From IMG/VR virus record IMGVR_UViG_3300017971_000864, positions 1-20,510 of that record: a stretch of 20,510 bases of DNA; one strand, given 5' to 3'. Within the stretch, counting starts at the first letter, position 1. Each line of letters starts with the position of its first letter. The translations under genes and the position numbers were made by a program. Source of the DNA: a virus. Below the pieces are notes generated by a model, which did no database searches, was not told where the DNA came from, and was given only the letters and a program-made list of their open reading frames with translations. Positions 4,101 to 8,213 of the stretch are shown here, piece by piece.

Positions 4101-5735
4101 ATGAGCGTCATAAGCCGGATGTTTGCCGGGCGCGTCACGCCTGATGGGGACGTTGGCTGGACGCCGGGGACATGGTTCGGTGCCGACGGGGGATACGAGA
4201 CGCCGAGCGGAGAGAAGGTCAACGAAGGCACTGCGATGGCCATATCCGCATGGTACGCCGGCGTGAATGCCATCTCAGAAGACATGGGCAAGCTGCCCGT
4301 CAAAACCTACCAAGAGAACGCCGACGGCTCGAAGGCCATCCGACGGGACCATCCTGTGTACCGGCTCATGGCCCGGGAACCTAACCCGGAGATGTCCGCA
4401 CAGTCGTTCCGGGAGACCATGACGCAACACGCGCTCACATTCGAGCGGGGCATAGCGGAGATTGAACGGGACAGGGCCGGCAATCCTATAGCCTTGTGGC
4501 CTCTTGACCCCACCATGGTCAAAAAGGGCCGGGACTCAAACACGGGCGCCATAGTCCACGAGATCAGGACGGACACCGGGGGCGCCGTCACGTTAGACGA
4601 CGCGGATGTGTTTGAAATCCATGGCTTGGGCTATGACGGGTTAGGGGGTTACCGGCGCGCGGCATTGGCTCGGTATACTCTGGGCATTATGCTCGCCGCA
4701 GAGAAATACCAGGGCGCGTTTTTCGGCAACGGCACATGGCTAGGCGGGTTCGTGCATTTTCCGGAAGGCGTTTCGATTGACGCGCTCAAGGTGTTCCGGG
4801 ACCAATTGAACGCCCGGCATGGCGGCGCGGACAAGGCGCACAAAATCGGCATCATCCCCGAAGGTGGTCAATACGTGTCCGCGGTTGCTGACCCGGAGAA
4901 GGCCACGCTTGGCACGTTGCTCAACTGGCACGTTGAAGAAGTGGCGCGGTGGCTGCGCATCCCACTGCCGAAACTCATGTCCCTCGTGAAGGCGAACTAC
5001 AACTCCCTCGAAGCGCTGGACACGGCTTACGTCAAAGACACACTGACGCCATGGGGCGAACGGTGGAAACAGGAAGCCGGTCGGAAGCTGTTCCGTGAAT
5101 CTGAGTCTGACCTCTTCTGCGAGTACGTGTACCAGGGACTCCTTCAGGGCGACATGGCCGCCCGGACAAACTACTATCAGTCCATGGTCAAAGTAGGGAT
5201 GACGGTGAACGATGTCCGGCGATTGGAGAACATGAACCCGATTGGACCGGCGGGTGACATCGTATTCGTAGATGGGACAAACCTCATGCCGATTGACGAG
5301 GCCGCGAAAAAGACAGCGCCGACAGCACAGGCGCCGGTGCCACAAAACAACAACGCCTCAGACGCTGAAGCAGCCCGGCCTGTGATAGCGGACGCCGTAG
5401 CCCGCGTCATGTCCAAAGAGGTGACCGAACTGGGACGCGCTCGGGACAAGTACGGGGACGGTACGGACGCATTCGTGACGTGGGCCGGTGAATGGTTGAC
5501 AGGCCATCTCGACTACGTGTCTCGCGCGATTGCTCCGGGGCTTGGACTTGCGGCGCGGCTATGCGCCGGGCAAGAGATAGACACGGCGCTCGCCGTCCAA
5601 TCGTGTGTCGCGCAATACGCAGCCGTGGGGTTGGAAGATGACCGGGAACAAATGCTTGTCAACCTGGCTATGCGACATGGTATAGCGGCCGGGCTTACAG
5701 AGCCCGTCGTGCAGGAGACGTGTAATGCTGACTGA
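4101..5735 (+). CDS. Portal protein, HK97 family
   Basis: A 544-residue protein forming the dodecameric ring at one capsid vertex through which DNA enters and to which the neck attaches. Family signatures are AISAWYAGVNAISEDMGKLP (48-67), REPNPEMSAQSF (92-103), IALWPLDPTMV (130-140) and, in the core, WLRIPLPKLMSL with the NYNSLEALD segment typical of HK97-type portals. A variable, alanine-rich C-terminal region follows about residue 410, with a low-complexity PTAQAPVPQNNNASDAEAA stretch and then a helical extension of roughly 100 residues. ATG 4101 is favoured over an earlier in-frame start at 4017 because GAGGAG lies at 4086-4091 and homologous sequence begins near here. The 3' end overlaps the protease start by 11 bases, indicating coupling. 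Confidence 0.93.
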   Translation: MSVISRMFAGRVTPDGDVGWTPGTWFGADGGYETPSGEKVNEGTAMAISAWYAGVNAISEDMGKLPVKTYQENADGSKAIRRDHPVYRLMAREPNPEMSAQSFRETMTQHALTFERGIAEIERDRAGNPIALWPLDPTMVKKGRDSNTGAIVHEIRTDTGGAVTLDDADVFEIHGLGYDGLGGYRRAALARYTLGIMLAAEKYQGAFFGNGTWLGGFVHFPEGVSIDALKVFRDQLNARHGGADKAHKIGIIPEGGQYVSAVADPEKATLGTLLNWHVEEVARWLRIPLPKLMSLVKANYNSLEALDTAYVKDTLTPWGERWKQEAGRKLFRESESDLFCEYVYQGLLQGDMAARTNYYQSMVKVGMTVNDVRRLENMNPIGPAGDIVFVDGTNLMPIDEAAKKTAPTAQAPVPQNNNASDAEAARPVIADAVARVMSKEVTELGRARDKYGDGTDAFVTWAGEWLTGHLDYVSRAIAPGLGLAARLCAGQEIDTALAVQSCVAQYAAVGLEDDREQMLVNLAMRHGIAAGLTEPVVQETCNAD

Positions 5736-6567
5736 CTGCGGACTATGGGCTATCGCACCGGGCTGGGAACGGCGCATCCTCGACGCAATGTCCCCGGATA
5801 CCGGGCGGGAGGCTGAGGTGACGGCCGCGGCAGGCCGGGCCACAGCAGACTATACCAAAGTCGGCGCATCGGCGGTCATCCCGGTCAAAGGCGTCTTGAC
5901 AAAGCACTTCAGCATGTTCACGCTGTTCTTTGGCGGCACGGCGTATTCCGGGATTGGCCGGGCATTGGCCGCGGTCGTCAACGACGACGAGGTGGAGTCT
6001 GTCACGTTACAGATTGATTCGCCAGGCGGGTCGGTGGACGGGCTCCCGGAACTCGGCCAAGCTATCCAGACAGCGCGAGAGCACAAGCCGGTGAACGCGT
6101 TTGTGGACGGGCTTGCGGCGAGCGCAGCGTATTATCTGGCGTCCAATGCAGAGACCGTAACAGCCGCACACGAGTTGAACGAGGTCGGGAGCATCGGCGT
6201 TAGGATGCTGGCCTATGACTTTTCGAGGGCCTTCGAGGATGACGGTATCCGGCCCGTGGTCATTGATACCGGCGTGCACAAATCCGCTGGCGCCATGGGC
6301 ACAGAAATCACTGAGGAACAGGCGGCCGTCTGGCAGGCGGCTGTCAATCGGTGGATGGACCACTTTGTTGAAGTTGTGGCGAAAGGCCGTAGCATGCCAC
6401 AGGAAAGCGTGCGGGCGGCTGGCGACGGCAGAATGTTCTACGCTGAGGACGCGGCGCGTATGGGCCTGATAGACGGTGTTGCCGGGTCGTCTGCGCAACC
6501 GGCGCGGCGCCAGGGGATGCGAACAGACACGGCGAAAGTACGGCAGCGGCTGCGCGGCGTCCGGTGA
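5725..6567 (+). CDS. Prohead protease, S49 (SppA/protein C-like) family
   Basis: A 280-residue serine protease expected to cleave the scaffold (delta) part of the capsid protein during head maturation. S49 signatures: SVTLQIDSPGGSV (92-104) forms the oxyanion region; DGLAASAAYYLAS (128-140) holds the nucleophile, probably Ser133; NEVGSIGV (152-159) is the conserved strand; and Lys186 in DTGVHKSAG is the likely general base of the Ser/Lys dyad. The start at 5725 has AGGAG at 5713-5717 and overlaps the portal. The C-terminus is short and basic. In HK97-type modules the protease sits between portal and capsid, as here. No fused scaffold is visible, in keeping with the scaffold being the N-terminal coiled coil of the capsid protein. 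Confidence 0.92.
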   Translation: MLTDCGLWAIAPGWERRILDAMSPDTGREAEVTAAAGRATADYTKVGASAVIPVKGVLTKHFSMFTLFFGGTAYSGIGRALAAVVNDDEVESVTLQIDSPGGSVDGLPELGQAIQTAREHKPVNAFVDGLAASAAYYLASNAETVTAAHELNEVGSIGVRMLAYDFSRAFEDDGIRPVVIDTGVHKSAGAMGTEITEEQAAVWQAAVNRWMDHFVEVVAKGRSMPQESVRAAGDGRMFYAEDAARMGLIDGVAGSSAQPARRQGMRTDTAKVRQRLRGVR

Positions 6568-6737
6568 ACATCAACGAAATCCGGTGGATTGCACGCGCGC
6601 AACATCAGGCGGAACGGCGCTTGACAGAATTACACCTTCGGGTGTACAGTTCTAGCGAACAGTTAAATCAGAGACAGACTCGCGAGACAACCGCGGCGCC
6701 TTCGACGTTGCGCAAGTCTTGCGAGAATAACAGGTAA
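6564..6737 (+). CDS. Possible small gene, 57 residues, unknown
   Basis: A GTG-started ORF overlaps the protease stop in a GTGA arrangement and runs to TAA at 6735-6737. The product starts MNINEIRWIARAQHQAERRL, a charged amphipathic helix, and ends in a Thr/Arg-rich tail (RQTRETTAAPSTLRKS). No Shine-Dalgarno sequence is evident, although direct coupling to the protease could substitute. The ORF coincides with the promoter-like elements and RNA stem described for this interval, so coding and structured-RNA readings compete. The composition resembles neighbouring genes in its first half and less so in the second. No family recognised; could be chance. Confidence 0.35.
   Translation: MNINEIRWIARAQHQAERRLTELHLRVYSSSEQLNQRQTRETTAAPSTLRKSCENNR
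6621..6649 (+). promoter_or_regulatory. Possible sigma70-like promoter with dyad between -35 and -10
   Basis: TTGACA at 6621-6626, then 17 bases, then TACAGT at 6644-6649 match a sigma70-type promoter with optimal spacing. The spacer holds the perfect 6-bp dyad TACACC-TTCG-GGTGTA (6631-6646), overlapping the first bases of the -10 box, which could act as an operator or, if transcribed, as a hairpin with a stable C(UUCG)G tetraloop. An outer AGAA/TTCT pair (6627-6630 with 6650-6653) could extend the stem. Transcription would begin near 6656. Host sigma preferences are unknown. Confidence 0.45.
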
Positions 6738-6809
6738 GCGAAACGCCTTAGACGTAAGCGCAGACTGTTTGGATCGACAACTATGTCTATCCGGCGGTCT
6801 GCGCTTTTT
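6656..6809 (+). ncRNA. Candidate structured leader or small RNA upstream of the capsid gene
   Basis: Between the possible promoter and the terminator-like hairpin the sequence folds well by eye. CTCGCGAGAC (6679-6688) pairs with GTCTTGCGAG (6716-6725) in a 10-bp stem with one G-U pair. Inside it GCGGCG (6693-6698) can pair with CGTTGC (6706-6711), using two G-U pairs. The 3' part is the long hairpin 6756-6806. Together these could make a transcript of about 150 bases, either an independent small RNA or a structured 5' leader of the capsid message. No known RNA family is recognised, and a 57-residue ORF overlaps the first half. Confidence 0.4.
6756..6809 (+). terminator. Rho-independent terminator-like hairpin before the capsid gene
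   Basis: AAGCGCAGAC (6756-6765) pairs perfectly with GTCTGCGCTT (6797-6806), followed by a T run (TTTTTGTTTT, 6805-6814). The loop is itself folded: GGAT (6771-6774) with ATCC (6789-6792), a 1x1 mismatch, then GACA (6776-6779) with TGTC (6784-6787), closing on a four-base loop. This gives one long nested hairpin. It lies 38 bases upstream of the capsid start codon, so it must be read through or used to tune or process the capsid message. Confidence 0.75.
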
Positions 6810-6851
6810 GTTTTGTGCTCCCGCCGGGCAACACGGTAGGAGCGAAACAGA

Positions 6852-8213
6852 ATGGATACTCTGAAAGGGCTGCGTGAGAAGCGTAGCGGACTGGAGGCGA
6901 AGATCAAGGCTATCCTCGCCTCCGCGGACGAAGACAACGAAGGCGTTCTGACCGACGAACAGCAGACGGAGATTGCCGAGGCCGAAACCGAAATCGACAA
7001 GCTCACGGCGAGCATCGATATGCGGGAACGTCATGCGTACCGCGCTCAGGCCGGGGCTGAACCGGCCGGCCGGCGTGTGCCGGTAGCAGATCCGGGTATC
7101 GGCGCTTCACGCATCGAAGTAGGGGAAACCCTGCTTGACCCGGCGTGCGGGTACACGCATGTGGCGCAATTTGCCATCGACGTGCATGCCGCTTGTCAGC
7201 CGGGTACACCCCCACCGCAGCGACTCACCAAGGCGATGGAGATTGCGCGCAAACTCGACGGCGGCGGTATGCAAGCGGCTCCGTCCGACTACCATCGGGA
7301 GGGCATGGGCCAGGACGGTGGGTACATGGTCCCGCCGTCATTCTCACAAGAAATCTGGGACGGCGTGTACAACCCGGACGATGAGGATATCATCAACTGG
7401 ATTGGCCCTGAACCCACCGAGAGCAACGTGGTGGGTATGTTGCGCGACGAATGGACGCCGTGGGGTTCCACGGGCGTTCAGGCGTATTGGCGCGCTGAAG
7501 CCGCTCAGATGAGCGCGACCAAGTCCGTGACGAAGACGGTCAACATGACGTTGCACGAACTGTACGCGTTTGTGCTCGCGACCGACGAACTTCTCGAGGA
7601 TGCACCTCGTTTGAACGCGCGGCTTACTAAACAGGCAAGCGCAGCCATCAAGTGGAAAGCGTCGGATGCGCTGGTGAAAGGCACAGGCGCCGGTACGCCG
7701 AAGGGCTGGGAAATCGATAGCGGCGTGTACGCCAGCATCGCGAAGGAGAGTTCTCAGACCGCCGATACCATCAACGCGGCCAACGCGACGAAGATGTACG
7801 GCGCGCTGTTGGGCCTGAACTCGCGGTGTTTCTGGCTCATCAACCCGGATGCGTTCAACCAAGTTCCGCAGATGACTATTGGCGAACAGCCTATTTGGAC
7901 GCCGCCGGTTCAGGGATTGAAAGGCGTCCCGACCGGGACTCTGCTAGGGTTGCCCATCCATTTGTGCGAACACTGCGAAACACTGGGCGACCTGTTTGAC
8001 ATCCAACTCATCAACCCGGACGGGTACTACTGCGCCGTCAAGTCCGGCGGGGTACGGGCTGCATCTTCGATGCACCTGTACTTTGACTACGCCGTGACTG
8101 CGTTTAGGTGGATGTTCCGCATCGGCGGCCAGTCCATCATGAGCGCTTACGTTACGCCGGCCAACAGTACCGTCTACCAGTCGCATTTCGTGGCGCTGGC
8201 TGCGAGGGCGTAA
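6852..8213 (+). CDS. Major capsid protein, HK97 fold
   Basis: A 453-residue shell protein. Residues 1-65 are charged and heptad-like (LKGLREKRSGLEAKIKAILA; ETEIDKLTASIDMRER), the coiled-coil delta/scaffold domain that the upstream protease should remove. After a variable linker, GGYMVPPSFSQEI (156-168) is the usual start of the mature HK97-type core. Downstream come the E-loop region, ELYAFVLATDELLEDA (the conserved helix entry), KASDALVKGTGAGTPKGW, and a C-terminal P-domain/strand region ending in QSHFVALAARA. The ATG at 6852 has AGGAG at 6838-6842. Length fits an unprocessed capsid protein. It may be expressed from its own regulated message, because a terminator-like hairpin precedes it. 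Confidence 0.93.
   Translation: MDTLKGLREKRSGLEAKIKAILASADEDNEGVLTDEQQTEIAEAETEIDKLTASIDMRERHAYRAQAGAEPAGRRVPVADPGIGASRIEVGETLLDPACGYTHVAQFAIDVHAACQPGTPPPQRLTKAMEIARKLDGGGMQAAPSDYHREGMGQDGGYMVPPSFSQEIWDGVYNPDDEDIINWIGPEPTESNVVGMLRDEWTPWGSTGVQAYWRAEAAQMSATKSVTKTVNMTLHELYAFVLATDELLEDAPRLNARLTKQASAAIKWKASDALVKGTGAGTPKGWEIDSGVYASIAKESSQTADTINAANATKMYGALLGLNSRCFWLINPDAFNQVPQMTIGEQPIWTPPVQGLKGVPTGTLLGLPIHLCEHCETLGDLFDIQLINPDGYYCAVKSGGVRAASSMHLYFDYAVTAFRWMFRIGGQSIMSAYVTPANSTVYQSHFVALAARA

Follow-up and report, generated by a model that had tools for sequence, protein, structure and literature searches.

A covarying leader RNA and its promoter ahead of the capsid gene of HK97-type phages, with a likely part in setting capsid output

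Described leader RNAs and the capsid leader

Viruses with HK97-fold capsids are very abundant and, to our knowledge, it is poorly known how tailed phages set the output of capsid protein relative to that of portal and protease. A covarying leader RNA together with a dedicated promoter at the capsid gene makes the control of capsid output testable, and this testability extends to a named Bradyrhizobium prophage, ppBdUSDA122-1, which has the simple pseudoknot form of the leader. The DNA analysed here, referred to as the window, is a complete IMG/VR record of 20,510 bases. It is quite likely that the gap before its capsid gene contains the promoter of this gene, followed by a structured 5' leader of ~195 nt; the leader would belong to a capsid-leader RNA that recurs among HK97-type phages and would set capsid output.

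A well-established RNA operator controlled by a capsid protein is the coat-protein operator of MS2/R17, a simple hairpin at the ribosome-binding site for which binding of the protein is established; MS2/R17 is an RNA phage, and its coat protein represses the replicase and not the coat gene. The capsid leader shares with this operator an RNA structure at the ribosome-binding site, whereas coat-protein binding is a feature of MS2/R17. The nearest precedent, as judged by analogy, would be the pseudoknot operator of T4 gene 32, which according to a review of 2010 is possibly the sole viral pseudoknot in translational autoregulation (PMC3014915). Both the gene 32 operator of T4, T2 and RB69 and the capsid leader belong to phage mRNA leaders in which an H-type pseudoknot, a probable one in the capsid leaders, precedes the start codon of a protein that the phage must make in quantity. 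They differ in that the gene served here encodes the major capsid protein, in phages of the HK97 type, in that the helix of the capsid leader lies 10-35 nt before the start compared to ~67 nt for the helix of gene 32, and in that leaders of the window's class add two-tier stems and a promoter; an operator of the gene 32 type would also bind its gene product. In SAM-II leaders, the 3' arm of a pseudoknot is located at the Shine-Dalgarno (SD) site, and the output, by terminator or by ribosome-binding site, varies between genes (PMC9373788). The capsid leader resembles these leaders in having the 3' arm of a possible pseudoknot near the SD site and terminator or ribosome-site outputs that may vary, and it differs from them in serving a phage late gene, without a match in Rfam and without a known ligand. 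A search confined to the open literature found no account of such a capsid-leader RNA.

Promoter and structured RNA in the gap

In the window, a gap of 284 nt separates the S49 protease gene (5725-6567) from the gene of the major capsid protein of the HK97 fold (6852-8213, plus strand; Pfam Phage_capsid, E 2e-34), and the leader lies directly upstream of the latter, whose ATG is at 6852. A preliminary description of this DNA had listed in the gap a promoter-like pair, a 10-bp stem (6679-6725) and a nested hairpin with T run (6756-6814). All three are present in sequence and fold at these coordinates; the spacer of the promoter-like pair, given there as 17 nt, is in fact 18 nt long.

The promoter of the capsid gene, TTGACA-N18-TACAGT on the plus strand (6621-6650; TTGACA at 6621-6626 and TACAGT at 6645-6650), is the sole site to reach 10/12 matches in the 20.5 kb when both strands are counted, compared to 0.55 expected per strand. 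As for promoters of the sigma-70 type, the hexamers lie within 16-18 nt of each other, 10/12 letters match, and the position is conserved in relatives. Sites with at least 10/12 matches occur before 6 of 135 capsid genes (window included; 1.2 expected) at -155 to -231, as scored with a stricter consensus of the E. coli type. The form TTGAC[AG]-18-TACNNT, whose TACNNT detail is partly post hoc, the window and its relatives being its source, lies at -204 to -247 from the capsid starts of L208, L310, L288, L063 and L200. Related loci totalling 1.0 Mb contain it seven times on the plus strand, five of these being 150-260 nt before capsid starts, which supports the initial reading of the pair as a promoter. 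Transcription would start near 6657 and would yield a capsid mRNA with a leader of ~195 nt. Across viral contigs, the exact promoter DNA TTGACAGAATTACACC has 13 chance-level matches and none of them at a capsid leader. The spacer contains the palindrome TACACC-TTCG-GGTGTA (6631-6646), which overlaps the -10 box and might serve as an operator; the sequence of this dyad is not conserved in relatives. The sister loci of the window L276, L287, L194 and L375 are without the TTGACA box; where the promoter would lie, ~170-200 nt before the capsid gene, all four have a NATACT-like segment.

The RNA fold of the region has z values of -4.8 to -5.9 against shuffles. Among 272 sliding 150-nt segments of the plus strand, those with the lowest z (-8.5) and the next lowest (-6.8) fall in the capsid leader, which is also a clear outlier among the gene leaders examined (z -4.4; next -2.4). 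Hairpins form readily in GC-rich DNA and the region was chosen by eye, both of which might speak for chance hairpins beside a chance promoter-like site; nevertheless, this explanation is most improbable, as the lowest fold z of the window is found here and as architecture, covariation and promoter are all conserved. Two other places in the window are of note. Besides the capsid leader, the most structured place of the plus strand (z -6.4) is 2626-2775, within the gene of the large terminase subunit. Furthermore, positions 854-1190 carry an array of ~36-bp repeats in which two 18-nt halves alternate, one with AGCGYGCCA and the other with AGYAACCCA ahead of 8-9 variable bases; the array looks non-coding and precedes an IS110/Transposase_20-like open reading frame.

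The elements of the leader follow each other on the plus strand. Stem A (6679-6725) is a two-tier hairpin seen in the fold, with a 10-bp stem CTCGCGAGAC/GTCTTGCGAG at 6679-6688/6716-6725, an inner stem, and a z of -2.7 for a 73-nt segment; in most relatives of the window's class a two-tier hairpin ends 0-6 nt ahead of the RACRCAG-like motif. The window's form of this conserved single-stranded RACRCAG(G) segment is AATAACAGG (6726-6734), which is covered by the match to the covariance model R1 described below and has the RACRCAG-like counterparts TAACACAGC in L375 and TAACGCAGC in L194. The alignments place ACGCCTTAGACGT (6743-6755), a weak 3-bp hairpin in the window, where relatives have a small CTCCnnCGAG hairpin. 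Stem B (6756-6806), the two-tier nested hairpin AAGCGCAGAC..GTCTGCGCTT that had been described as a terminator, is identified by the R1 match and by covariation in relatives, and it passes into the U-rich linker or T run TTTTTGTTTTG (6805-6815), which is terminator-like in this lineage. The segments TCCGGCG (6790-6796) and CGCCGGG (6822-6828) are the possible 5' and 3' arms of a pseudoknot helix with a stacking energy of -16.2 kcal/mol, the latter arm lying just ahead of the SD sequence AGGAG (6838-6842). In the lowest-energy fold of the window, stem B is fully zipped, and the ribosome-binding site is closed in a long predicted hairpin with the U tract (6807-6851), in which the U tract pairs with GAAACAGA and GCTCC (6817-6821) with GGAGC (6839-6843). 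A trp-like four-segment attenuator (TAAGCG/CGCCTTA/TAAGCGC/GCGCTT, 6736-6806) was also seen in the window and in L068; it is absent in other members and is not claimed.

The leader class and its possible outputs

Comparison of ~175 capsid loci places the window as one member of a class of capsid-leader RNAs with a common order of promoter, stem A, RACRCAG-like segment, small hairpin, two-tier stem B, U-rich linker, SD site and capsid ATG. The spacing is that of RACRCAG(G), ~10 nt, the CTCCnnCGAG hairpin, stem B, a linker (for instance UUUCGCGUUU or UUUUUGUUUUG), and the pre-SD segment. Both structures of the preliminary description are thereby parts of one RNA architecture repeated before the capsid genes of distant relatives, which favours the regulated capsid leader that it had offered as one alternative; because of this recurrence across capsid loci, we prefer a regulated leader to a stand-alone RNA.

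The covariance model R1 and its alignment A5 were built from seven seeds (L208, L216, L207, L310, L288, L202 and L306) with the window left out. The best match of R1 in the window is 6728-6814 with 22.5 bits and E 4.8e-4 (filters off; next best E 0.19). The E-values of R1 are rough owing to a shortened calibration, and that of the window is not fully blind, because the class had initially been spotted by eye through its likeness to the window. The non-seed matches with E<0.1 among 155 loci (L058, L063, L046, L209, L287, L276, L212 and the window), together with L194 (E 0.12), all lie directly ahead of a capsid start, and the best misplaced match is on the minus strand of L031 (E 0.11), with reverse complements of true hairpins set aside. 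R1 has no matches in 398 bacterial (Pseudomonadota) genomes, and Rfam 15 has no family at gathering threshold in the window or in 16 related loci, where only sub-threshold snoRNA noise was obtained.

Covariation in homologues, which had been suggested as a check, is seen in the eight non-seed rows: standard pairs fill 97.4% of the pair cells and in 15 of 21 pairs both sides have changed, in an alignment fitted to the model, which favours pairing. None of 1000 shuffles matches the observed covariation, and pairing falls to 34-57% when the partner is shifted by one or two columns. Stable GC-rich hairpins which adjoin the most demanded structural gene and which are kept as their sequence changes would also suit an element of mRNA processing or stability, the hairpins being nuclease entry points or 5' barriers that prolong the life of the capsid mRNA. 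We regard this as unlikely, since the conserved single-stranded motif, the conserved helix adjacent to the SD site and the dedicated promoter exceed what a barrier needs. Comparison of the loci demonstrates a conserved architecture, covariation, a conserved promoter and a capsid-specific position, and the findings suggest that the making of viral shells is subject to an RNA control element not described before.

Pairing is possible between the loop of stem B and the segment ahead of the SD site, the arms in the window being TCCGGCG and CGCCGGG. In leaders of the window's class this pseudoknot helix prefers its own partner (partner-swap permutation p 0.0003, n=18), and compensation is found between sister phages, with GTGCG/CGCAC in L194 and AGGTG/CACCT in L375 at the same place; L261, near the window on the capsid tree, has GCCGGCGG/CCGCCGGC at the pseudoknot arms. 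A simpler leader class is found in a large clade of rhizobial and rhodobacterial prophages, among them the Bradyrhizobium phage introduced above, and it consists of an H-type pseudoknot in which a hairpin loop pairs with the pre-SD segment. In this class, loop and downstream segment from one and the same phage pair with a mean of -9.2 kcal/mol, compared to -7.1 kcal/mol for swapped partners (37 distinct helix sequences in n=116 leaders; permutation p<5e-5); the hairpin used for each leader was its best one, picked without regard to the second helix. In the nested fold of the window it would cost ~23 kcal/mol to open both pseudoknot arms, and their helix returns ~12; the pseudoknot is therefore not the ground state of the window. 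Here it would be an alternative state, which perhaps depends on a ligand or does not form at all. Sequestration of the SD site shows no significant excess in the window's class over the simpler class (p 0.26).

The sequence of promoter, two structured domains and terminator-like hairpin could also be likened, by its layout, to a cis-acting antitermination RNA of the HK022 put type, in which a promoter-proximal RNA modifies RNA polymerase for a long late operon. This is very unlikely, given that the pseudoknot to the pre-SD segment points to translation and that many members are without a terminator. More weight is due to termination itself. The layout of an intrinsic terminator is present in the window, with the canonical GC-rich hairpin (6756-6806) followed at once by the U tract; a simple terminator scan did not list this hairpin, clear as it is in the fold, probably because the scan looks for unbroken stems with loops of 3-8 nt. 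Transcription from 6621-6650 might mostly stop at ~6808-6815 and give an attenuator product or stand-alone small RNA of 150-160 nt, so that capsid mRNA would need read-through or antitermination. Strong U tracts are found not only in the window but also in L276, L287, L194, L375, L068 and L103, and a precedent is given by Sinorhizobium SAM-II leaders, which yield small RNAs via termination in a pseudoknotted leader (PMC9373788). However, the U tract is degenerate, weak or absent, in L216, L063, L058 and L306, all of which keep the stem, and covariation reaches the pre-SD segment beyond the terminator. Termination is therefore at most a lineage-specific output, and the transcript of about 150 bases ending at the terminator, as initially proposed, is not established. 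Attenuation in this leader is possible, and as the general account of the gap it is a tentative one; the differences between lineages suggest that leader outputs vary as in riboswitch-type leaders.

For the regulated capsid leader preferred here, it is likely, judging from the conserved features, that the leader acts in cis to set capsid output. In a closed state, stem B would be zipped and the ribosome-binding site held in its hairpin, with termination at the U tract possibly added in this lineage, while an open or pseudoknotted state would alter the access of ribosomes; switching between these states would set the amount of capsid protein. The likeliest triggers would be the capsid protein itself, in the sense of autogenous control, or the ribosome. 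More speculatively, and with considerable doubt, a large HK97-type group might possess a new family of pseudoknotted leader RNAs that senses free capsid protein or an assembly signal and tunes capsid synthesis, its terminator and ribosome-site outputs being swapped between lineages as in riboswitches.

Leaders across the capsid tree

The relatives were collected at 35-51% capsid identity to the window, and none is close. With the protease as query for close relatives no matches were obtained, and a DNA-level search of phage records found similarity in the capsid coding region only. Many relatives have gaps of just ~90-120 nt, without promoter or terminator look, and nearly all are structured there. 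Leader classes cluster on a capsid tree of 126 rows (16 changes compared to 65 when shuffled). The window groups with L261, L046, L276, L287, L194, L375 and L047 (support 85, FastTree only), and all of this group except L047 carry the window's leader class. An earlier capsid tree of 61 rows had placed the window beside L103, L106 and L108; the larger tree moved it to phages of its own class.

Other kinds of capsid leader were observed as well. A third kind, with a hairpin, a U run and then a GGGCGCACGCGCCC hairpin, occurs in one clade of the capsid tree (L364, L373, L377, L371, L065 and L072). Moreover, a hairpin GGCTCCGnnGAGACC, in which an A is bulged and which in some cases is present twice, is located upstream of the capsid gene in L049, L050, L053, L034, L051 and L058, and it resembles a protein-binding hairpin.
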